Origin: Gloeomargarita lithophora Alchichica-D10
GTDB lineage: Bacteria; Cyanobacteriota; Cyanobacteriia; Gloeomargaritales; Gloeomargaritaceae
Assembly: GCF_001870225.1 (NCBI RefSeq)
Contig: NZ_CP017675.1
Coordinates: 2,289,517-2,348,570, forward strand
Direction of reading: 5' to 3'
DNA length: 59,054 nucleotides
Of the stretch, positions 15,101 through 50,543 are shown piece after piece (position 1 is the stretch's first letter; each line of letters opens with the position of its first letter). A program made the translations under genes and the position numbers. The notes beneath the pieces are model-generated. The model was not told the origin of the DNA and did not search any database. It saw nothing but the letters and a program-made list of their open reading frames with translations.

Positions 15101-16290
15101 TATTCCTTTGCCTTGATAATTCCCGCCGATATTGACAATCCCACCGCCTTTATTTCCCGAAGCATCCACCAGCGCATTCCCATTTAAGGCGATTTTTTCA
15201 CCCGTGATTTCAACCTTACCGCCCCGTTCTCCTGATACATTTAATTCCCCATTCACCGCCACAATACCCTGGGAACCACCGGATAAAACAATCACGCCAT
15301 TGCGATTTTCCGCATACTTCGCTTCAATCATTCCAGAAGTGTTAATCACACTATCTACAATCTGCCCAGCCGCTTGAGCCGTTAAGGTAACAATGCCTCC
15401 GGGTGCGGTGATATTGCCTTGGTTGTCAATCAAAGAATTGAGTTTATTCCCGTAAATATCCGTGATTTGTCCCGCTAAATTCGGGTCAACCGTTACACTT
15501 AATAACCCATCCCCATAAAAATCTAAACTAACGGTCGTTCCTGACGCTAAAACTACCTTCCCCAAGCGAGCCGAAATTACGCCGCTATTTTGCACCGCCG
15601 GAGCGACTAAAGCAGCAAAACCCGCTTCTTTTACTGTAATTAAACCCTGATTCACCACCGATGTCGGAGCTTTTCCTGGCATTTGCTCAAAGCGTAAAAT
15701 ACCCCGCATGAAATCACTATCTTGGATATTTAATGTACTGGCGACCAACCCCGCCACATCCACCCGCGCGGTGGGTAAAAACATGATCCCGTTGGGGTTA
15801 ATCAAAAAGATTTGCCCATTCGCCGTAAGTTTCCCGGCGATACTCGAAGGCGTATTCCCCGTGACTCGATTTAAGGTGGCCGATGTACTGCTGGGTTGTT
15901 GAAAATTCACCCACTCCGGCGCACCAATGCTAAACCCATTCCAGTTGATAACCGCTCTGTCCGTGGATTGGTTGATGTTAAGTTTCGTGGCACTCTCCTG
16001 CTGAATCACTGCCTGACCCTGGGTGACCACGCCGCCCTGGGGTAGTGCCATCCCCGGCATTTGGCTGAAGCACAATACCGCCAACGCCTTGAGAGGAAAC
16101 CAGACCAGATAACGGAGGGAAGACAGGAGTTTCATCGCCCTAAATGATGATGGTATTGCTATACTTGCCTGAGTATAATGCCAGAATTTGGGCAAGTGAG
16201 ATTTTTTTAATTTTTAGTTAAGCCCTGGTTAAGACATCCGAGTATGGGACACCTCTAGGGATAGTAGGTCACATCTGTTCGTCAAATGGC

Positions 16291-16413
16291 TATAGCAATC
16301 CTAATTCAATTTTGAACAGCGGTCGCAGGGGCGCCGCCCCCGTACTTGGTTCTTCTGAATATTTGTTCGCCAAATGGCTACGCCACGCAGGCTATCGGGT
16401 GGGATTGCTGTTT
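16291..16413. mobile_element. Type B element upstream of the adhesin gene
   Basis: Left end TATAGCAATCCTAATTCAAT, core GGTCGCAGGGGCGCCGCCCC, decayed right end GGGATTGCTGTTT. A partial type A end (GACACCTCTA) precedes it near 16249. It sits in the 222-base gap between the divergent ends of the adhesin and Uma2 genes. Confidence 0.75.
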
Positions 16414-23015: not shown

Positions 23016-23213
23016 GACACCTCTATTTATTTGAACCCGCAGCAAGTTATTTCGCTGGAATGCTGATAGACTGCGTGGCGTAATCATTATTACCGACTAT
23101 AGCAATCCTATTTGAATTTTGAACAGCGGTCGCAGGGGCACCGCCCCCGAACTTGATTCTTCTGAATATCTGTTCGCTAATCGGATGGGATTGCTATATT
23201 TTTAGAGGTGTCC
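23016..23213. mobile_element. Type A element carrying a nested type B element
   Basis: Left half GACACCTCTATTTATTTGAA runs to about 23097. The right end TTTTTAGAGGTGTCC is at 23199-23213. Between them sits a complete type B element. A further type A-like end (TAGAGGTGCCCTAAAG) follows at about 23221. Confidence 0.8.
23098..23198. mobile_element. Type B element nested in a type A element
   Basis: Perfect ends TATAGCAATCC...GGATTGCTATA, core GGTCGCAGGGGCACCGCCCC; 101 bases. It interrupts the type A element, so it arrived later. Confidence 0.85.
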
Positions 23214-31677: not shown

Positions 31678-31835
31678 AAGTGCGGGTTCTCAAATGGATG
31701 TCGGCGGGCTGATACCCAACCAATTTACATCTTTTAATGTATCGCAAATTTTTAGCTTCTGGCATCCTCCCCTCGCAGGCTTCGCAAGTGGGCTATCATA
31801 GGCTAATCACCAGTGCCCAAAGAAATTTTATTTAT

Positions 31836-31955
31836 GGACACCTCTATTTACCGGAACCAACCGAAAATCTTATCCCTGGAAGACAGATATTCTGGAGAAC
31901 CAGGGGCGGGGGGTGCCCCCCTGCGACCGCTAATTTGCAATTTATAGAGGTGCCC
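31836..31955. mobile_element. Type A element abutting rseP
   Basis: GGACACCTCTATTTACCGGA at the left, core GGCGGGGGGTGCCCCCCTGC, right end TTTATAGAGGTGCCC. It stops 2 bases before the rseP ATG. TTAT occurs on both sides and may be a target duplication. Confidence 0.85.
31947..31952 (+). promoter_or_regulatory. Ribosome binding site of rseP supplied by the element end
   Basis: GAGGTG lies 5 bases before the ATG at 31958, optimal position and sequence. All six bases belong to the right terminal repeat of the type A element. Confidence 0.8.
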
Positions 31956-31957
31956 TT

Positions 31958-33034
31958 ATGTCAATTTTGGCGGCCATCGCAGTTTTAGCGATTCTCATCT
32001 GTGTCCATGAGTTGGGGCATTTTTTGGCGGTGCGGGTGCAGGGGATTCGGGTCAGCCAATTTTCCCTGGGGTTTGGTCCTGCCCTCTGGTCGTATCAGGG
32101 AAAGGAGGTGCAGTACGCCGTCCGGGCGATTCCCCTGGGTGGGTATGTGGGGTTTCCCGATGATGACCCGGAAAGCGGTATCCCCAATGATGACCCGGAT
32201 TTGCTCCGCAACCGCCCCATTGGTGACCGGGCGTTGGTGATTAGTGCCGGGGTGTTGGCAAATTTGCTTTTTGCGTACTTGGTCTTGACCACCCAAGTTT
32301 TAACCGTAGGGATACCCCAACTGGTCTATCAACCGGGGGTGCGGGTGCCCCAGATTGCCCTGGATACCAGTACCGTGGCGCAACGGGCGGGTTTGCAGGC
32401 GGGGGATGTGATCCTGGGGGTGGACGGTCAGACCTTGGCACCGGGGAAAGAGGCGGTAAATCGGGTGGTGCAGGCGATTCAATCCCGACCCAACCAAACA
32501 ATTCGTTTGCAAATTCAGCGGCAAAATCAAGTGCTTAAACTTACGGTTGTCCCGGAATTAACGGCAAATGGTCAGGGGCGAATTGGCGTACAATTGCAGG
32601 ATAATGTCAGTGTGGGTAATCGCCATTCCCGCAATCCTTTTGAGGCGATTGGGTTGGGGGCGCAGGAATTTCACCGTTTATTGACCAACACGGTACAGGG
32701 GTATTGGGAGTTGGTGCAACATTTTCAGGAAACCGCCAATCAAGTGGCTGGGCCGGTGGCGATTGTGGCGATGGGAGCGGGTTTGGTGCGGTCGAGTTGG
32801 GGGAGTTTACTGCAATTTTCTGCCCTAATTAGCATCAATTTGGCGGTGATTAATATCCTGCCCCTGCCCGCTTTGGATGGGGGGCAGTTGGTATTTTTGG
32901 GCATCGAGGCTTTGCGGGGGCGGCCTTTACCGGCACGGGTGCAAGAAAGTGTGATGCAAACGGGGCTGTTATTGTTATTGGGATTGGGGGTATTTTTAAT
33001 TATTCGGGACACGGTGCGGCTGGTGGGACTTTAA
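31958..33034 (+). CDS. rseP: Intramembrane site-2 zinc protease (RseP/M50 family)
   Basis: 358 residues. The zinc-binding HELGH motif is at residues 17-21 in the first transmembrane helix (ILICVHELGHFLAVRVQG), a PDZ domain is at about 120-200 (AGLQAGDVILGVDGQTLAPG), and the third ligand motif is LPLPALDGGQL near residue 306. It cleaves membrane-bound anti-sigma factors or similar substrates after a first periplasmic cut. Whether it is the RseP or another S2P paralogue is not decided here. Its ribosome site lies inside a mobile element. Confidence 0.88.
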   Translation: MSILAAIAVLAILICVHELGHFLAVRVQGIRVSQFSLGFGPALWSYQGKEVQYAVRAIPLGGYVGFPDDDPESGIPNDDPDLLRNRPIGDRALVISAGVLANLLFAYLVLTTQVLTVGIPQLVYQPGVRVPQIALDTSTVAQRAGLQAGDVILGVDGQTLAPGKEAVNRVVQAIQSRPNQTIRLQIQRQNQVLKLTVVPELTANGQGRIGVQLQDNVSVGNRHSRNPFEAIGLGAQEFHRLLTNTVQGYWELVQHFQETANQVAGPVAIVAMGAGLVRSSWGSLLQFSALISINLAVINILPLPALDGGQLVFLGIEALRGRPLPARVQESVMQTGLLLLLGLGVFLIIRDTVRLVGL

Positions 33035-35338: not shown

Positions 35339-36249
35339 CTATAGATTTTTGGTTGCCCAGGTGGATTCTTTTTTGCCTTCAAATCCTGCTCTGTTCTCAA
35401 GTGTAAAACCACAGGATTTTAAGGCTCGTTTTAGACTGCTAGTGCTGGCATAGGTGGTGAATAAGCAATTTGAAGAACTGTAGTAATTGATCAGGTTAGT
35501 TAAATATGCTTCTTGCCATAATGCCTGAGAGGTTTTAGAACTGTAGGCATCAAATAAAATTCCTTGAATTTGGCCTTGGACTTGGGGAAGATAGGTTAAT
35601 TCATTCTCTAGTGGGACTTTATAAGTTTTAAGCCCTAAAACAGGCTCAAGCTCAAGCAAGACAGGCAAAACACATCGACAAGGTAAAAATGGCTGGAACC
35701 CAGTCGCATCAAGAAAATATGCTGATCGAGGTAAAACAATTGCTGTGTCTAGGTCTGAGACCGTTTAGGAGCCAGTTTCTCTCAAAGTCCCACTAGGGTT
35801 AAATGTTGCCGGAGCCAATCCCGTACTTGGGGCATTTCCTGGATATAATTTTGTTTGAATTTAGCATCTCTAAGTTGATAAATGGTATCCAATTCCGATG
35901 ATTGACCGAGTAACCAATGGTGAAATTGCTCCCGCCAATACACCTGTGATTCAAAGCTGATCACTCGACAATTGCCTGATTTTTGAGATTTTAAACATTC
36001 ACAGGCGATCAAAATTTCAATGTAGCCTAATCCTAATCCCACAATTAAAAAATAGGGATTGATCCAGTTTTTTATCACTGCCCGAATCGCCTCCCCATAA
36101 ACATATTGAGTTTCCGAGTAAGCCCCCCCGGAATGATGCATACATTCCCGATTGGTTGTGCCTAAATCTCGAATGGTGGGGCTACCATCATTGGTAATGA
36201 CTGTGGCGAAATGGCCTTGATAAATCAAACCCGCCGGTTGCCAGTTCAT
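35339..36249 (-). pseudogene. MnmC-like (DUF752) methyltransferase gene split by element C
   Basis: The 5' part (36249 to 35796) encodes RECMHHSGGAYSETQYVYGE and FLIVGLGLGYIEIL, the SAM-binding start. The 3' part (35608 to 35339) encodes ILFDAYSSKTSQALWQEAYL, FTTYASTSSLKRALKSCGF and GFEGKKESTWA, the C-terminal half of the same family. A 183-base element lies between. Deleting it plus one TA joins HLTL directly to ENELTYLPQ in frame, so the ancestral protein (about 240 residues) can be read through. With the element present the first part stops after HLTLVGL and the fold is cut after the SAM-binding half, so the product is almost certainly dead. The MnmC family modifies wobble uridine in tRNA; the exact substrate of this member is unknown. 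Confidence 0.8.
35611..35793. mobile_element. Element C, copy 1 (183 bp, in MnmC-like gene)
   Basis: Inverted ends GTGGGACTTT and AAAGTCCCAC, flanked by TA on both sides. Nearly identical over all 183 bases to copy 2 at 50339-50521; I saw one difference. No transposase; size and TA target suggest a non-autonomous element mobilised by an IS630/mariner-like enzyme. Confidence 0.92.
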
Positions 36250-37399: not shown

Positions 37400-37413
37400 T
37401 TTTAGGGTATCTC

Positions 37414-37529
37414 TATAGCAATCCTAATTGAATTTTGAATAGCGGTCGCAGGGGGGCACCCCCTGGTTCTGTGGAATTTTTGTATGCCTACGGCACGCAG
37501 GCTAACGTAAATCGTGTCATATTGCTATA
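37414..37529. mobile_element. Type B element nested in type A remnants
   Basis: Ends TATAGCAATCCTAATTGAAT and ATTGCTATA, core GGTCGCAGGGGGGCACCCCC. Flanked by GGTATCTC on the left and GAGGTGTC on the right, which look like the two ends of a type A element that it entered. Confidence 0.8.
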
Positions 37530-37904: not shown

Positions 37905-38288
37905 GGCTAAGCTCAATACAGCAATCGTTGGGGGACGGGTCAATGTTTACCGTGCGGCAAGAATCCTGGAGATGTCTGGGGTGATATTAAACAATTAACC
38001 TATAAATCAAAGGAACTTGTTTCTAGGGAAACACTCAATACAATCCAAAAACCAGAGAAGCTAATTGAGCGAATTATTTTAGCTAGTTCAGACCCAGGAG
38101 ATTTAGTTCTGGATCCATTTGTCGGTGTCGGAACCTGCCCTGTTGTTTGCAAACGTCATGGCCGTAATTTTATAGCATTTGAGACGAAAGCAGAGTTTGT
38201 TACTGTTGCCGAGGAACGTCTTTCGAGTCTTGATACCGGGCAACAAATTTTAGAATTTTCCTATGGCACACGAACTATAGCAATTTGA
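37905..38288 (+). pseudogene. DNA methyltransferase C-terminal fragment
   Basis: No start codon fits; the frame can be read from about 37929 as CGKNPGDVWGDIKQL and continues through IQKPEKLIERIILASSDPGD, LVLDPFVGVGTCPVVCKRHG and RNFIAFETKAEFVTVAEERL. This is the C-terminal half of a type II-like N4/N6 DNA methyltransferase, where DPFVGVGT is the SAM-binding motif I (DPFxGxGT). The N-terminal catalytic half is missing. The frame ends in ATAGCAATTTGA, the end of a mobile element, so the native stop was replaced. It begins within 40 bases of tRNA-Arg, a common integration site. More AT-rich than surrounding genes. Confidence 0.8.
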
Positions 38289-40347: not shown

Positions 40348-40468
40348 GGACACCTCTATTTATTTGCAATGATAGAGAACTATAGTAGTCCCACTCGATT
40401 AGCGAACAGATATTCAGAAGAACCAAGTCCGGGGGCGGTGCCCCTGCGACCTATTTTTAGAGGTGTCC
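40348..40468. mobile_element. Type A element upstream of radA
   Basis: GGACACCTCTATTTATTTGC at the left, core GGGGGCGGTGCCCCTGCGAC, right end CTATTTTTAGAGGTGTCC. The interior resembles type B (GAACAGATATTCAGAAGAAC). Its GAGGTG is 13 bases before the radA ATG. Confidence 0.85.
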
Positions 40469-40478
40469 TTTAATCAAT

Positions 40479-41861
40479 ATGCCCAAAAGCCGTAGTCAGT
40501 ACATTTGCCGGGAATGTGGGGCGGAGTTCAGTCAATACTTCGGCCAGTGTCGCAACTGTGGGGCGTGGAATAGCCTGGATGAGGTGGTCGTTGCCCCGGA
40601 GCGGGGGCTGAAATCCCGCAGTTTATCGGCACCGCAACCCCGCCAGTCCCTACCTTTGAGCCAAATTAGCGACCAGGATTGGCAACGGTTATCTACCGGT
40701 TCCGGGGAGTTTGACCGGGTGTTGGGGGGGGGGATTGTCCCCGGTTCTCTGGTGCTGGTGGCGGGGGATGCGGGGATCGGCAAGTCAACATTGTTATTAC
40801 AAACGATGGCATTGCTGGCGGCGCAAACGCCGGTTTTGTATGTGTGTGCGGAGGAGTCGGCGCAACAGGTGAAATTGCGGGCGAAGCGTTTGACCAGTGC
40901 CTCCGATTGGCAGGAATTGTATCTATTGGCGGAAACCCATTTGGAAACTATTTTGGCGGAATTGGACAGTATGCGTCCCCAGGTGGCGGTGATTGATAGT
41001 ATTCAAGCCCTGATGTATGCCGCTCTGACTTCGGCTCCCGGTTCCGTGGCGCAGGTGCGGGAATGTACGTCGGCGTTGATGCGGGTGGCAAAACACAATC
41101 ATACGGCTTTATTTATTGTCGGTCATATTACCAAAGAGGGGGCAATTGCGGGGCCAAAAGTGCTGGAGCATTTGGTGGATACGGTGTTGTATTTTGAGGG
41201 GGATGCGTTTGCCAATTTTCGTCTTTTGCGGGCGGGGAAAAATCGCTTTGGCCCTAGCTATGAATTGGGTATTTTTGAAATGACCCAGCAGGGTTTACAA
41301 GAGGTTAGTAATCCTTCGGTATTATTCCTCAGCCATCGGGAATCCCCCGCCCCCGGCGTAGCCACGATTGTGGCCTGTGAAGCCAGCCGTCCCCTATTAG
41401 TAGAAATTCAGGCGTTGGTCAGCCCCACCAGCTATGGCACGCCTCGGCGGGTGGCCACGGGCATTGATTACAATCGCTTGGTACAAATTTTAGCGGTGTT
41501 GGAAAAACACCTAGGGATTCCTTTAGCTAAGTTTGATGTTTATGTGGCTTCGGCGGGGGGATTGGGGGTGTCGGAACCGGCGGCGGATTTGGGGATTGCC
41601 CTGGCGATTATTGCCAGTTTTCGTAACTGTTTGGTGAAACCCCAGACGGTGTTGATGGGGGAGTTGGGTTTGAGTGGGCAAATTCGTCCGATTCAACAAA
41701 TTGAAACCCGTCTCAAGGAAGCGGTGAAATTGGGGTTCAAACGGGCGATTATCCCTGTGATAAATGTAGAAGCAATTCCAGGGTTGGAACTGATCCCCGT
41801 GCAACGGATTTTACCGGCGATTTTGGCCGCCCTGCCGGAAGCAGAAGCATCAGCGGGGTAG
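40479..41861 (+). CDS. radA: DNA repair protein RadA
   Basis: 460 residues. The N-terminal zinc finger has Cys10, Cys13, Cys24 and Cys27, followed by a RecA-like ATPase with Walker A GDAGIGKSTLLL and the RadA signature KNRFG (RAGKNRFGPSYELG). The C-terminal Lon-like domain is seen in PAADLGIALAIIASF. RadA helps process recombination intermediates as a branch-migration helicase. The only ribosome-site-like sequence upstream is GAGGTG in the adjacent element, at a longer than ideal distance. Confidence 0.95.
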   Translation: MPKSRSQYICRECGAEFSQYFGQCRNCGAWNSLDEVVVAPERGLKSRSLSAPQPRQSLPLSQISDQDWQRLSTGSGEFDRVLGGGIVPGSLVLVAGDAGIGKSTLLLQTMALLAAQTPVLYVCAEESAQQVKLRAKRLTSASDWQELYLLAETHLETILAELDSMRPQVAVIDSIQALMYAALTSAPGSVAQVRECTSALMRVAKHNHTALFIVGHITKEGAIAGPKVLEHLVDTVLYFEGDAFANFRLLRAGKNRFGPSYELGIFEMTQQGLQEVSNPSVLFLSHRESPAPGVATIVACEASRPLLVEIQALVSPTSYGTPRRVATGIDYNRLVQILAVLEKHLGIPLAKFDVYVASAGGLGVSEPAADLGIALAIIASFRNCLVKPQTVLMGELGLSGQIRPIQQIETRLKEAVKLGFKRAIIPVINVEAIPGLELIPVQRILPAILAALPEAEASAG

Positions 41862-44299: not shown

Positions 44300-44758
44300 T
44301 CAGGGAAACCAATTTTCATCTAGGGCTTGTTCTAGGGTAAATTGTGGTGCCTCAGGAATCAGATTTTTATCTAATTCACTTGCATCCAAAAATAAGTTTC
44401 TGCCCTGGTGATAAGCAGATAAATAATTTTCTTGAAGAACATTTTTTAGGCTAGGACTATCTTTCAGTATCACTTTGATTCGCTGACGAAAACTACGAAC
44501 TTCTCGTTTCCAACCCCGCCAACACCTTTCCCGCTCTGATGCCCAGTATTGCATTTTCAATAAATGCTCACATAAACGCATAAGGTAGCTTGTTATTGCT
44601 CGTTTATCACTTTTTCCCAAGCTCTCTACCTCCTCGATTAGATTGGGTAAATCCAGATGGTGAAAATCTTGTTTTTTCAATAAAATTGCCGTCTGCTCTA
44701 GCCACAGAGCAAAGTCGGTTTCGTATAGTTCACTCATCGTTAATTTTGATTCTTTCAT
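44300..44758 (-). CDS. DUF29-family protein (array member 1, most diverged)
   Basis: About 152 residues. N-terminal MSELYETDFALWLEQTAILL and DLPNLIEEVESLGKSDKRAI are the DUF29 signature; the middle carries WRGWKREVRSFRQRIKVIL. The C-terminus (TLEQALDENWFP) differs from its four paralogues, which end in LLNDIFWE or -K. A helical protein of unknown function, widespread in cyanobacteria. The ATG at 44758 sits 7 bases after a GAGGTG that belongs to a type A element. Confidence 0.85.
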   Translation of the reverse strand: MKESKLTMSELYETDFALWLEQTAILLKKQDFHHLDLPNLIEEVESLGKSDKRAITSYLMRLCEHLLKMQYWASERERCWRGWKREVRSFRQRIKVILKDSPSLKNVLQENYLSAYHQGRNLFLDASELDKNLIPEAPQFTLEQALDENWFP

Positions 44759-44762
44759 CACA

Positions 44763-44872
44763 GGACACCTCTATTTATTTGCACTAACAGAAAGTTATCT
44801 CGCTGGAATGCCAGTATTACTGAGAACCAGGGACGGGGGCGGTGCCCCTGCGACCTATTTTTAGAGGTGTCC
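44763..44872. mobile_element. Type A element in the DUF29 array, copy 1
   Basis: 110 bases, GGACACCTCTATTTATTTGC to TTTTTAGAGGTGTCC, with core GGGGGCGGTGCCCCTGCGAC. Differs from copy 2 at 45805-45914 by perhaps one base. Confidence 0.92.
44766..44771 (-). promoter_or_regulatory. Ribosome binding site of DUF29 gene 1 inside the element
   Basis: GAGGTG on the minus strand, 7 bases before the ATG at 44758. It is part of the terminal inverted repeat of the adjacent element. Confidence 0.75.
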
Positions 44873-44877
44873 AATTG

Positions 44878-45336
44878 CTACTCCCAAAATATATCATTTA
44901 ACAACTGTTCAGAGTCAGTGGGAAATGGGCAAATTTCAGGAAATGGATAACTTTGATAATCAGGATTTTCTTTTAATAATAGTAATGCGTCTTGATAGCA
45001 TTCATCAATAATTTGCTGGACATATATTTTTAAGCTGGGTACATCTTCGAGTAATTTTTTAATTTCTTTTTGATTACGTCTAATGGTATCTGTCCAGCCT
45101 CGATAATCCTGAATCAAGTCAGTAAAACATCGCTTCAAACTATGTTCAAACAAGGTGGTTAAACGATTGTACAATTCCCGTTTATCGCTTCTCCCCAAGC
45201 TCTCTACCTCCTCGATTAGATTAGGTAAATCCAGATGTTGAAAATCTTGTTTTTGCAATAAAATTGCCGTCTGCTCTAGCCACAAAGCAAAATCCGTTTC
45301 GTACAGTTCACGCATGGTTAATTTTGATTCTTTCAT
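44878..45336 (-). CDS. DUF29-family protein (array member 2)
   Basis: About 152 residues from the ATG at 45336; the frame opens with a TTG at 45351. The GGAAG ribosome site is built from the last codons and stop of member 3, so the two are co-translated. RELYETDFALWLEQTAILLQ and DLPNLIEEVESLGRSDKREL match the other members; it ends FPTDSEQLLNDIFWE. In the middle it carries DYRGWTDTIRRNQKEIKKLL, closer to member 5 than to 3 and 4. Confidence 0.85.
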   Translation of the reverse strand: MKESKLTMRELYETDFALWLEQTAILLQKQDFQHLDLPNLIEEVESLGRSDKRELYNRLTTLFEHSLKRCFTDLIQDYRGWTDTIRRNQKEIKKLLEDVPSLKIYVQQIIDECYQDALLLLKENPDYQSYPFPEICPFPTDSEQLLNDIFWE

Positions 45337-45341
45337 TACAG

Positions 45342-45800
45342 TTACTTCCAAAAAATATCATTTAACAACCGTTCGACATCGGTAGGAAATGGACAATTTT
45401 TAGGGAATGAGTAGTTTTGATAATCTAAATTTACTACTAACCGTCTTTTTGCCATTCTATAGCAATTATCAAAAACTTCTGACCAATAGCGTTTCAAGCT
45501 GGGAGAATCTTCTAGGCAAATTTTTAATTCATCCTGCTCTCTAACAATAGTTTCTTCCCACCCCCGATAATCATAAGGGCTGTCCACATATTTTCTTTTT
45601 AAGGCGTGTTCCAACAGGGTAGTCAATCTACTTTGTAATTCATGCTTTTGACTTTTGCCCAAACTCTCTACCTCCTCAATTAAATTGGGTAAATCTAGGT
45701 GCTGAAAGTCCTGTTTTTGTAGCAAAATTGCCGTCTGCTCTAACCACAGAGCAAAATCAGTTTCGTATAATTCACTCATGGTTAATTTTAAGTCTTTCAT
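45342..45800 (-). CDS. DUF29-family protein (array member 3)
   Basis: About 152 residues from the ATG at 45800. MSELYETDFALWLEQTAILL, then HALKRKYVDSPYDYRGWEET and FPTDVERLLNDIFWK. Most similar to member 4 in the central region (REQDELK...EDSPSLKRYW, VFDNCYRMAKRRLV). Its ribosome site (GAGGTG) lies in the element at 45805-45914. First gene of the repeated pair 3-2. Confidence 0.85.
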   Translation of the reverse strand: MKDLKLTMSELYETDFALWLEQTAILLQKQDFQHLDLPNLIEEVESLGKSQKHELQSRLTTLLEHALKRKYVDSPYDYRGWEETIVREQDELKICLEDSPSLKRYWSEVFDNCYRMAKRRLVVNLDYQNYSFPKNCPFPTDVERLLNDIFWK

Positions 45801-45804
45801 CACA

Positions 45805-45914
45805 GGACACCTCTATTTGTTTGCACTAACAGAAAGTTATCTCGCTGGAATGCCAGTATTACTGAGAACCAGGGACGGGGGCGGTGCCCCTGCGACCTAT
45901 TTTTAGAGGTGTCC
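45805..45914. mobile_element. Type A element in the DUF29 array, copy 2
   Basis: 110 bases, GGACACCTCTATTTGTTTGC to TTTTTAGAGGTGTCC. Near-identical to the copy at 44763-44872 and placed the same way between DUF29 genes, 1042 bases away. Confidence 0.92.
45808..45813 (-). promoter_or_regulatory. Ribosome binding site of DUF29 gene 3 inside the element
   Basis: GAGGTG on the minus strand, 7 bases before the ATG at 45800, within the terminal repeat of the type A element. Same arrangement as at 44766-44771. Confidence 0.75.
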
Positions 45915-45919
45915 AACTG

Positions 45920-46378
45920 CTACTCCCAAAATATATCATTTAACAACTGTTCAGAATCAGTAGGAAATGGGCAGGTTTCAGACAAGGCATATTTTCTATA
46001 ATCCGAGTTAGCCACCAATCGTCTTTTGGCTAATTGATAACAACTATCGAAAACTTCCAGCCAGTAGCCTTGTAAACTTGGCGAGTCAGCGAGGATGTTT
46101 TTTAATTCATCCTGTTCCCTGAGTATTGTTTCTTCCCAGCCTCGATAATTGTAGGAACTATTCACATACTTTCTTTTTAAGACGTGTTCTAATAGGGTAG
46201 TCAATCTACTTTTTAATTCTCGTCTATCTCTGCCAGCCAAACCCTCTACCTCCTCGATTAAATTAGCTAAATCTAGGTGCTGAAAGTCTTGAGCTTTTAA
46301 TAATTTAGCCGTTTGTTCTAGCCACAGAGCAAAATCAGTTTCGTATAATTCACTCATGGTTAATTTTAATTCTTTCAT
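45920..46378 (-). CDS. DUF29-family protein (array member 4)
   Basis: About 152 residues from the ATG at 46378 (TTG at 46393 opens the frame). The ribosome site GGGAG is the end of member 5. MSELYETDFALWLEQTAKLL, VEGLAGRDRRELKSRLTTLL, and FPTDSEQLLNDIFWE. The AGRDRREL phrase is shared with member 5 and replaces the GKSxKRxL of members 1 to 3. Confidence 0.85.
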   Translation of the reverse strand: MKELKLTMSELYETDFALWLEQTAKLLKAQDFQHLDLANLIEEVEGLAGRDRRELKSRLTTLLEHVLKRKYVNSSYNYRGWEETILREQDELKNILADSPSLQGYWLEVFDSCYQLAKRRLVANSDYRKYALSETCPFPTDSEQLLNDIFWE

Positions 46379-46383
46379 TACAA

Positions 46384-46836
46384 CTACTCCCAAAATATAT
46401 CATTTAACAACTGTTCAATATCAGTAGGAAATGGACATGATTTAGGAAAATCTATGTCATGTTCTATCGTGACAATGGCGAGTGCATCCCCATAGCATTC
46501 ATCTATACAAAGTAGAAAGTAACTTTCTAAACTGGGGGAGTCTTTAAGTAATTTATTGATTTCAATTTGTGTGCGTTTGATGGTGCTTGCCCATCCCCGA
46601 TAGTCATAGGGGTTATCCACATATTTTCTTTTGAGGGCGTGTTCAAATAGGGTGGTTAATCTACTTTGTAATTCTCGTCTATCTCTGCCAGCTAAACCCT
46701 CTACCTCCTCGATTAAATTAACTAAATCAAGATGCTGAAAATCCTGTTTTTGCAATAAAATTACCGTTTGTTCTAGCCAACGGTAATAGTCGGTGTCATA
46801 CAGAGTTGTTAATTCGGAAGCAGGCTGGAATTGCAT
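46384..46836 (-). CDS. DUF29-family protein (array member 5)
   Basis: About 150 residues from the ATG at 46836; the frame extends to 46884 into the mrp gene end, but MQFQPASELTTLYDTDYYRW is the better start. It has a different N-terminus (TLYDTDYYRWLEQTVILLQK) but the usual DLVNLIEEVEGLAGRDRREL and LLNDIFWE. First gene of the array in the direction of transcription, 45 bases after the mrp stop, so the array may be read from the mrp transcript. Confidence 0.85.
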   Translation of the reverse strand: MQFQPASELTTLYDTDYYRWLEQTVILLQKQDFQHLDLVNLIEEVEGLAGRDRRELQSRLTTLFEHALKRKYVDNPYDYRGWASTIKRTQIEINKLLKDSPSLESYFLLCIDECYGDALAIVTIEHDIDFPKSCPFPTDIEQLLNDIFWE

Positions 46837-50336: not shown

Positions 50337-50338
50337 TA

Positions 50339-50521
50339 GTGGGACTTTATAAGTTTTAAGCCCTAAAACAGGCTCAAGCTCAAGCAAGACAGGCAAAACA
50401 CATCGACAAGGTAAAAATGGCTGGAACCCAGTCGCATCAAGAAAATATGCTGATCGAGGTAAAACAATTGCTGTGTCTAGGTCTGAGGCCGTTTAGGAGC
50501 CAGTTTCTCTCAAAGTCCCAC
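50339..50521. mobile_element. Element C, copy 2 (183 bp)
   Basis: Inverted ends GTGGGACTTT/AAAGTCCCAC, flanked by TA at 50337-50338 and 50522-50523. Same length and almost the same sequence as the copy in the MnmC-like gene, in the same orientation. Confidence 0.92.
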
Positions 50522-50543
50522 TATATCCGTGGCATAAACTAGC

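Follow-up and report, generated by a model that had tools for sequence, protein, structure and literature searches.

Terminal repeats of IS5-derived MITEs as candidate replacement ribosome binding sites in Gloeomargarita lithophora

Gloeomargarita is the lineage sister to plastids and is of special interest for that reason. In the genome of G. lithophora Alchichica-D10, small non-autonomous mobile elements (MITEs) carry in both of their ends the hexamer GAGGTG, which at rseP and at other genes lies exactly 5 nt before the start codon, the spacing preferred by the Shine-Dalgarno (SD) motifs of the genome itself. Judging from the sequences compared here, we consider it on balance probable that such an element end replaces the start signal that it displaces and that insertion at a translation start is thereby made survivable. 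The motif stands at a suitable distance in about ten genes, and the contrast between ends before starts and ends before stops, together with an integrity of GAGGTG that depends on its spacing, favors real use of the motif as an initiation signal.

Results

Element family and parent insertion sequence

The elements that lie next to rseP, radA and two DUF29 genes in the window (the whole stretch of 59,054 nucleotides that was analyzed, part of the single contig of 3,049,282 bases that forms the genome) are listed in Table 1. Their terminal inverted repeat (TIR) is TAGAGGTGYCC (11 bp; GGRCACCTCTA on the other strand), which reads outward at both ends and includes GAGGTG. The window holds 32 near-matches to the TIR where 16.7 were expected, a number that none of 100 shuffles attained. 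Genome-wide, 220 exact ends were present in 3.05 Mb, and controls with the reversed pattern gave 0. Exact ends were also counted in three relatives, placed by their rseP identity, and numbered 264 in Gloeomargaritales cyanobacterium VI4D9 (G001, 89%), 109 in an uncultured cyanobacterium MAG (G002, 89%) and 2 in Gloeomargarita sp. SKYG116 (G003, 77 to 79%). The stretches around ends yielded 36 complete elements with exact ends, mostly 104 to 141 bp long, and a 4-bp target-site duplication (TSD) was found in 16 of these 36, any other length occurring in at most 2. Outward of the ends, the flank consensus is T, W, W, A/T and then G, an A/T-rich 4-bp target. Past mobility is evident from orthologous sites that are empty in at least one relative, as is the case for rseP, radA, BrxL, the CCA transferase and the methylase in stretch L294.

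Table 1. Window coordinates of elements, GAGGTG motifs and genes at rseP, radA and the DUF29 array
Feature	Position	Strand	Remarks
Left TSD copy, TTAT	31832..31835	+	TTAT flanks the element on both sides
MITE, 120 bp, R2 end toward rseP	31836..31955	+	TIR GGACACCTCTA / TAGAGGTGCCC; site empty in VI4D9, MAG L031 and SKYG116
GAGGTG, SD-like, in right end	31947..31952	+	5 nt before rseP ATG; aligned spacing 7, the genome optimum
Right TSD copy, TTAT	31956..31959	+	together with the G that follows, rebuilds ...TTATG and its start codon
rseP (RIP metalloprotease)	31958..33034	+	TIGR00054, E 2.4e-98; start conserved in relatives
MITE, 121 bp, TSD TTTA, upstream of radA	40348..40468	+	empty site in three relatives
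GAGGTG before radA	40460-40465	+	13 nt to ATG 40479; judged too distant to act
radA	40479..41861	+	TIGR00416, E 1.3e-187
MITE, 110 bp, facing DUF29 gene 1	44763..44872	-	GAGGTG 7 nt before ATG 44758
DUF29 gene 1	44300..44758	-	PF01724, E 1.1e-46
MITE, 110 bp, facing DUF29 gene 3	45805..45914	-	tandem copy of 44763-44872, 99% identical; GAGGTG 7 nt before ATG 45800
DUF29 gene 3	45342..45800	-	PF01724, E 4.4e-42

The genome of VI4D9 contains many copies of a 1,243-bp insertion sequence (IS) with the TIR GGGCACCTCTATTAATT and a 4-bp duplication, whose ends are identical to the MITE ends. Its transposase (343 aa) matches NF033581, the IS5 family, at E 1.7e-80 and 270 bits (cut-off 140) and contains the domains PF01609 and PF05598 (DUF772). 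A search for an autonomous copy in the G. lithophora genome found none, only two transposase fragments. Since ends and 4-bp duplication are common to the MITEs and the VI4D9 IS and the G. lithophora genome keeps fragments only, the elements are orphan non-autonomous MITEs descended from an IS5-family insertion sequence.

The window contains further repeats. One type (CTATAGCAATCCTAATTGAATTTTGAA..., at 16290-16373, 23097-23180 and 37413-37496) has a G/C-rich hairpin in common with the MITE described above (the type A element) and different ends, and some of its copies are mosaics with that element. A 187-bp repeat outside the MITE family is present at 35609-35795 and 50337-50523 in copies that are 99% identical. 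Between a MITE and a tRNA-like sequence at about 37825, a DNA-methylase-like coding fragment (37990-38270, read by eye) is possibly a pseudogene. Five DUF29-like genes at 44300-46836 form an array that grew by tandem duplication with a period of 1,042 bp, the MITE being copied along.

GAGGTG lies at the native Shine-Dalgarno spacing

An earlier note on this DNA had read the element ends as portable ribosome binding sites at four genes. GAGGTG is indeed present in the terminal repeat, outward at both ends, at 5 nt from rseP, 7 nt from both DUF29 genes and 13 nt from radA, with all coordinates as given there; the region assigned to the rseP element (31836-31958) overruns it, the bases after the element's last position being the TSD and the ATG. 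The 3' end of 16S rRNA (GGATCACCTCC / GGCTGGATCACCTCC) is present in the genome, and GAGGTG is complementary to its CACCTC, which makes it a six-base match to the anti-SD. At starts of the G. lithophora genome that have no element, SD motifs peak at an aligned spacing of 7 to 8, and SD 6-mers at 7 (10 versus a background of 0.5); GAGGTG at a spacing of 5 has the aligned spacing 7 and hence the native optimum. The cut lies three bases (YCC) beyond GAGGTG, and with a TWAT-G target two more bases precede the ATG, so that a spacing of 5 is inherent in the geometry. Only about 8% of the genes in this genome have an SD 5-mer above background, and an SD may therefore matter little.

These data treat the four proposed cases differently. 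The rseP spacing is the optimal one, but radA was discarded as an example, with a spacing of 13 and no enrichment of SD motifs at that distance in the same genome, and the two DUF29-facing elements, which lie in the 1,042-bp tandem duplication and were duplicated with its unit, were counted as one event. On the use of other start codons in these genes, a doubt raised with the original proposal, orthologues back the called starts of rseP and radA (and of the CCA transferase, BrxL, the L115 glycosyltransferase and the L294 methylase), and a paralogue without the element backs those of DUF29.

Element ends before starts and before stops

Genes were called with a purpose-written caller that used codon bias and start-codon type and excluded SD information. 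In G. lithophora it covered 737 kb around ends (the window and stretches L111 to L190), and in the relatives 509 kb (VI4D9) and 246 kb (the MAG); the own-genome sample, made up of stretches chosen around exact ends and amounting to about one quarter of the genome, was supplemented by whole-genome pattern searches. Called starts in the G. lithophora genome followed ends at spacings of 5 (five), 7 (two), 8 (three), 10 and 13, and none at 14 to 27. After removal of duplicates, nine ends lay 4 to 10 nt before a start, compared with 1.6 expected for target-weighted random insertion, and five lay exactly 5 nt before a start, compared with 0.44. The same null was also exceeded near stops (8 versus 2.0 at 4 to 10 nt and 10 versus 2.9 at 14 to 27 nt) and is therefore too low to gauge enrichment at starts. 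Gene edges of either kind are enriched in ends, and for this reason the uniform random-insertion null had been replaced by the target-weighted one, and a stop-codon control was then used. Ends at 4 to 10 and 11 to 27 nt numbered 9 and 1 before starts and 8 and 12 before stops (Fisher P = 0.017; small counts, compared post hoc). In the three genomes together, 4 ends lay 11 to 27 nt before starts versus 25 before stops, and relative to the range of 28 to 150 nt this gave P = 0.0003, again for small counts in a comparison chosen after looking at the data. Ends at 4 to 10 nt are as frequent by stops as by starts, which argues for an absence of counter-selection there and not for attraction to starts.

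Seven of the nine start-facing ends are firm events: those before rseP, the glycosyltransferase of L115, BrxL (L119), a DevA-type ABC ATPase (L142), a CCA-type nucleotidyltransferase (L176), DUF29 and an MGMT-like gene (L128). The other two were set aside. In L111, orthologue alignment puts the element inside a coding sequence; there (L111:2990-3130), a 120-bp element with the 4-bp duplication AGGA interrupts and shifts the frame of what is likely a pseudogene in G. lithophora, whereas its VI4D9 counterpart (L257) is intact. In the L156 pair, TAGAGGTGCCC precedes a duplicated Uma2-like gene without element sequence behind it and was left out of the element count. Two more start-facing cases, L122 and L189, were dropped, their start codons lacking confirmation. 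The whole-genome pattern search added genes that the caller had missed or had started otherwise, namely, two GNAT acetyltransferases (L113 and L151), a DNA methylase (L294), an epimerase (L297), a radical SAM gene (L295) and an open reading frame (ORF) of 130 aa in L133 without a Pfam match.

Among ATGs 4 to 10 nt behind an end in the G. lithophora genome, 19 of 46 opened an ORF of at least 90 codons, compared with 15% of ATGs that are non-coding or starts (P = 1.5e-5, duplicates included). The enrichment that the earlier note had led us to look for was thus present in this genome but, by the same 90-codon criterion, in neither VI4D9 (3/27) nor the MAG (1/15), where 11% was expected. When conditioned on NNATG, 5 of 19 ATGs were gene starts by the caller versus 8% of non-coding ATGs (P = 0.015). 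In the G. lithophora genome, 24 ends had an ATG at a spacing of 5, and 14 of these ATGs opened no ORF of at least 90 aa; most such ends lead no gene because the target TWAT-G itself supplies the ATG.

GAGGTG integrity depends on distance

With degenerate ends included, GAGGTG was intact in all 10 events in which an end lay 5 to 10 nt before a called start (the DUF29 pair merged, L111 included), mismatches falling only outside the hexamer, and was broken in all five ends at 15 to 25 nt (GAGGGG, GAGGTA, GAGATG, GGGGTA and GAGGTA), in a test that was also post hoc and small in numbers. The background of broken hexamers was 74 of 222 ends (33%). Among 42 element-like ends with a broken GAGGTG, sampled genome-wide, the caller placed one start at 4 to 10 nt and one at 11 to 27 nt; by the 90-codon criterion there were 1 and 4, respectively, where exact ends gave 17 and 4 (P = 0.02).

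Empty sites and orthologues

Upstream regions of orthologues showed conserved ATGs, empty sites and mostly no SD (rseP, CCA and L294). The general "domesticating benefit" once ascribed to the elements is left unproven by orthologues that mostly manage without an SD. The rseP site reads ...ATTTTTATG in VI4D9 and ...TTTTTTATG in the MAG, with no element and no SD, and SKYG116 has neither. The radA element is absent in the three genomes. The CCA site is empty and without SD in the MAG and SKYG116, and in VI4D9 an element end lies 19 nt before the likely start. The VI4D9 site of the L294 methylase is empty, with no SD; in G. lithophora only the SD-bearing element end is kept. At BrxL (TSD TTAT), the joined flanks read GTGAGGTTGAATTATG with a native GAGG beside the ATG, from which it follows that the element displaced this GAGG and that GAGGTG is now in its place; VI4D9 retains a native GAGGA. 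Element ends stand before the BrxL (BREX) gene (L119:971-2998) and again at a more distant upstream position (5419), and the BREX locus seems to be rich in MITEs.

At L115, the inferred empty site AGTTAATG is a TAATG stop/start overlap, both codons of which are preserved by the TAAT duplication. Its VI4D9 orthologue (L254, at about position 1820) is preceded by a decayed element that points the other way and has nevertheless kept GAGGTG at 5 nt from the ATG; the site is either old and common to both genomes or the result of a separate insertion. In L142 (L142:2980-3130), the element entered the inferred ancestral ORF behind codon 4. Its duplication, TAAT, is part of ATGAATAGTTTAATG; the insertion thereby severs the original first codons (MNSL), and the gene seems to start at the next ATG, now 5 nt behind the element end. 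The homologue in the MAG begins MNT.

Predicted RNA folding

In read-through RNA of elements with intact TIRs, GAGGTG is predicted to pair with the distal repeat (structures with z of about -2.4). The predicted probability of being unpaired was at most 0.01 for rseP, L115, L142, L128, both DUF29 genes and radA, and the predicted opening energy for intact elements was 7 to 17 kcal/mol versus a control median of 6.3. Accessibility is predicted to be ordinary for transcripts that start within the element and for elements whose distal repeat has decayed, as it has at BrxL, CCA and L297. Predicted masking was no lower in start-facing elements than in others (P = 0.85), and the idea that start-facing elements shed the distal repeat to unmask the SD was dropped for want of a difference. 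The predicted masking by intact TIRs is the main obstacle to a simple reading of the ends as ribosome binding sites.

Discussion

The course of events that we regard as probable would run as follows. The terminal repeat of an IS5-family element happens to contain GAGGTG, and its transposase cut an A/T-rich 4-bp target with the outward consensus TWWA/T then G. Where the target TWAT-G lies inside a natural ...TWATG start, the duplication preserves the start codon on the distal side of the element, and the same insertion sets GAGGTG exactly 5 nt before the ATG, at the native optimum, while the gene's own leader is pushed about 124 nt upstream. Such insertions would be tolerated because ribosomes could be recruited by the element end instead. 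Those 11 to 27 nt before a start would displace the leader without offering a well-spaced SD and would be lost or have their GAGGTG mutated. The end would thus be a replacement ribosome binding site that neither attracts insertion nor is needed by the gene, and we infer that ribosomes use it. A stronger version, in which the TWAT-targeting end builds an SD-5 nt-ATG junction that swaps leaders without damage to either gene, including at stop/start overlaps in operons, and in which the MITEs are then selected as initiation signals, is possible, and we put it forward only tentatively.

As portable ribosome binding sites, then, the ends gain credit from their complementarity to 16S rRNA, the optimal spacing, the gap at 11 to 27 nt and a GAGGTG that is kept at the right spacing, but lose some of it to stops that equal starts (8 versus 9), unenriched relatives, an ATG that comes with the target and an SD that is predicted to be paired. 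The latter group of observations is partly what would be seen if target preference alone were at work. TWAT-G contains an ATG, so that ends would regularly fall 5 nt before an ATG, and in a compact genome some of these ATGs would be starts of genes; ends near genes would be those left over after purifying selection within genes, with GAGGTG lying idle. We hold this coincidence to be rather unlikely. The flank TWWA/TG, the ends at spacing 5 that open no long ORF, the modest excess of starts conditioned on NNATG, the equal density near stops and the lack of enrichment in VI4D9 and the MAG are in line with it; it fails, however, to predict the gap before starts (1 end at 11 to 27 nt versus 12 before stops), the breakage of GAGGTG at 15 to 25 nt and its preservation at 5 to 10 nt or the excess over the target-weighted null.

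The predicted stem over GAGGTG, with its z score and opening energies, could also be taken as the function itself, the paired repeats hiding the SD and acting as a translational brake or as a switch opened by an internal transcription start or an upstream ribosome. This seems improbable to us, since any element with TIRs folds likewise, start-facing elements are the same as others in this respect, and those of BrxL, CCA and L297 have a decayed distal repeat and ordinary predicted accessibility. Supply of a promoter or a transcript end, as by Correia elements, with closeness to the start codon as a by-product, has the precedent of other prokaryotic MITEs (PMC10969869); it would select neither a 5-nt spacing nor an intact GAGGTG, and we regard it as very improbable. 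Replacement of the displaced start signal remains the reading that we prefer.

In architecture, the elements resemble known prokaryotic MITEs (Nezha in cyanobacteria, MITEAba12 and Correia) in being 100 to 140 bp long, non-coding, intergenic and high in copy number, with TIRs and target duplication, and, as for MITEs derived from IS elements, a parent IS has been identified, here in a relative. They share with the IS5 family (NF033581) the transposase match of the parent, the 4-bp duplication and the terminal repeat, but are themselves without transposase, and their own genome keeps fragments only. Like Rickettsia palindromic elements and Correia, which change the products or the expression of adjacent genes, they are small repeats at or in genes, tolerated as the gene still works; Rickettsia palindromic elements are translated in frame, whereas the element here stops short of the start codon, for which it would provide the signal to initiate. 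A review of MITE function lists promoters, IHF sites, RNase processing, small RNAs and in-frame fusions, and its text contains none of the words ribosome, Shine or start codon, an SD role being unlisted (PMC10969869). The terminal repeat as an SD, proposed here from sequence, falls outside these reviewed roles, and an element of a familiar type would therefore, if this is true, have acquired a role not described before. We found no report of MITE-supplied SD sequences in the open-access literature searched. If the proposal is true, the end sequence and the target preference of the element together rebuild an initiation site and make hits at a translation start, where a gene is most sensitive, harmless, and ribosome recruitment would join the host functions that have been taken over from bacterial MITEs.
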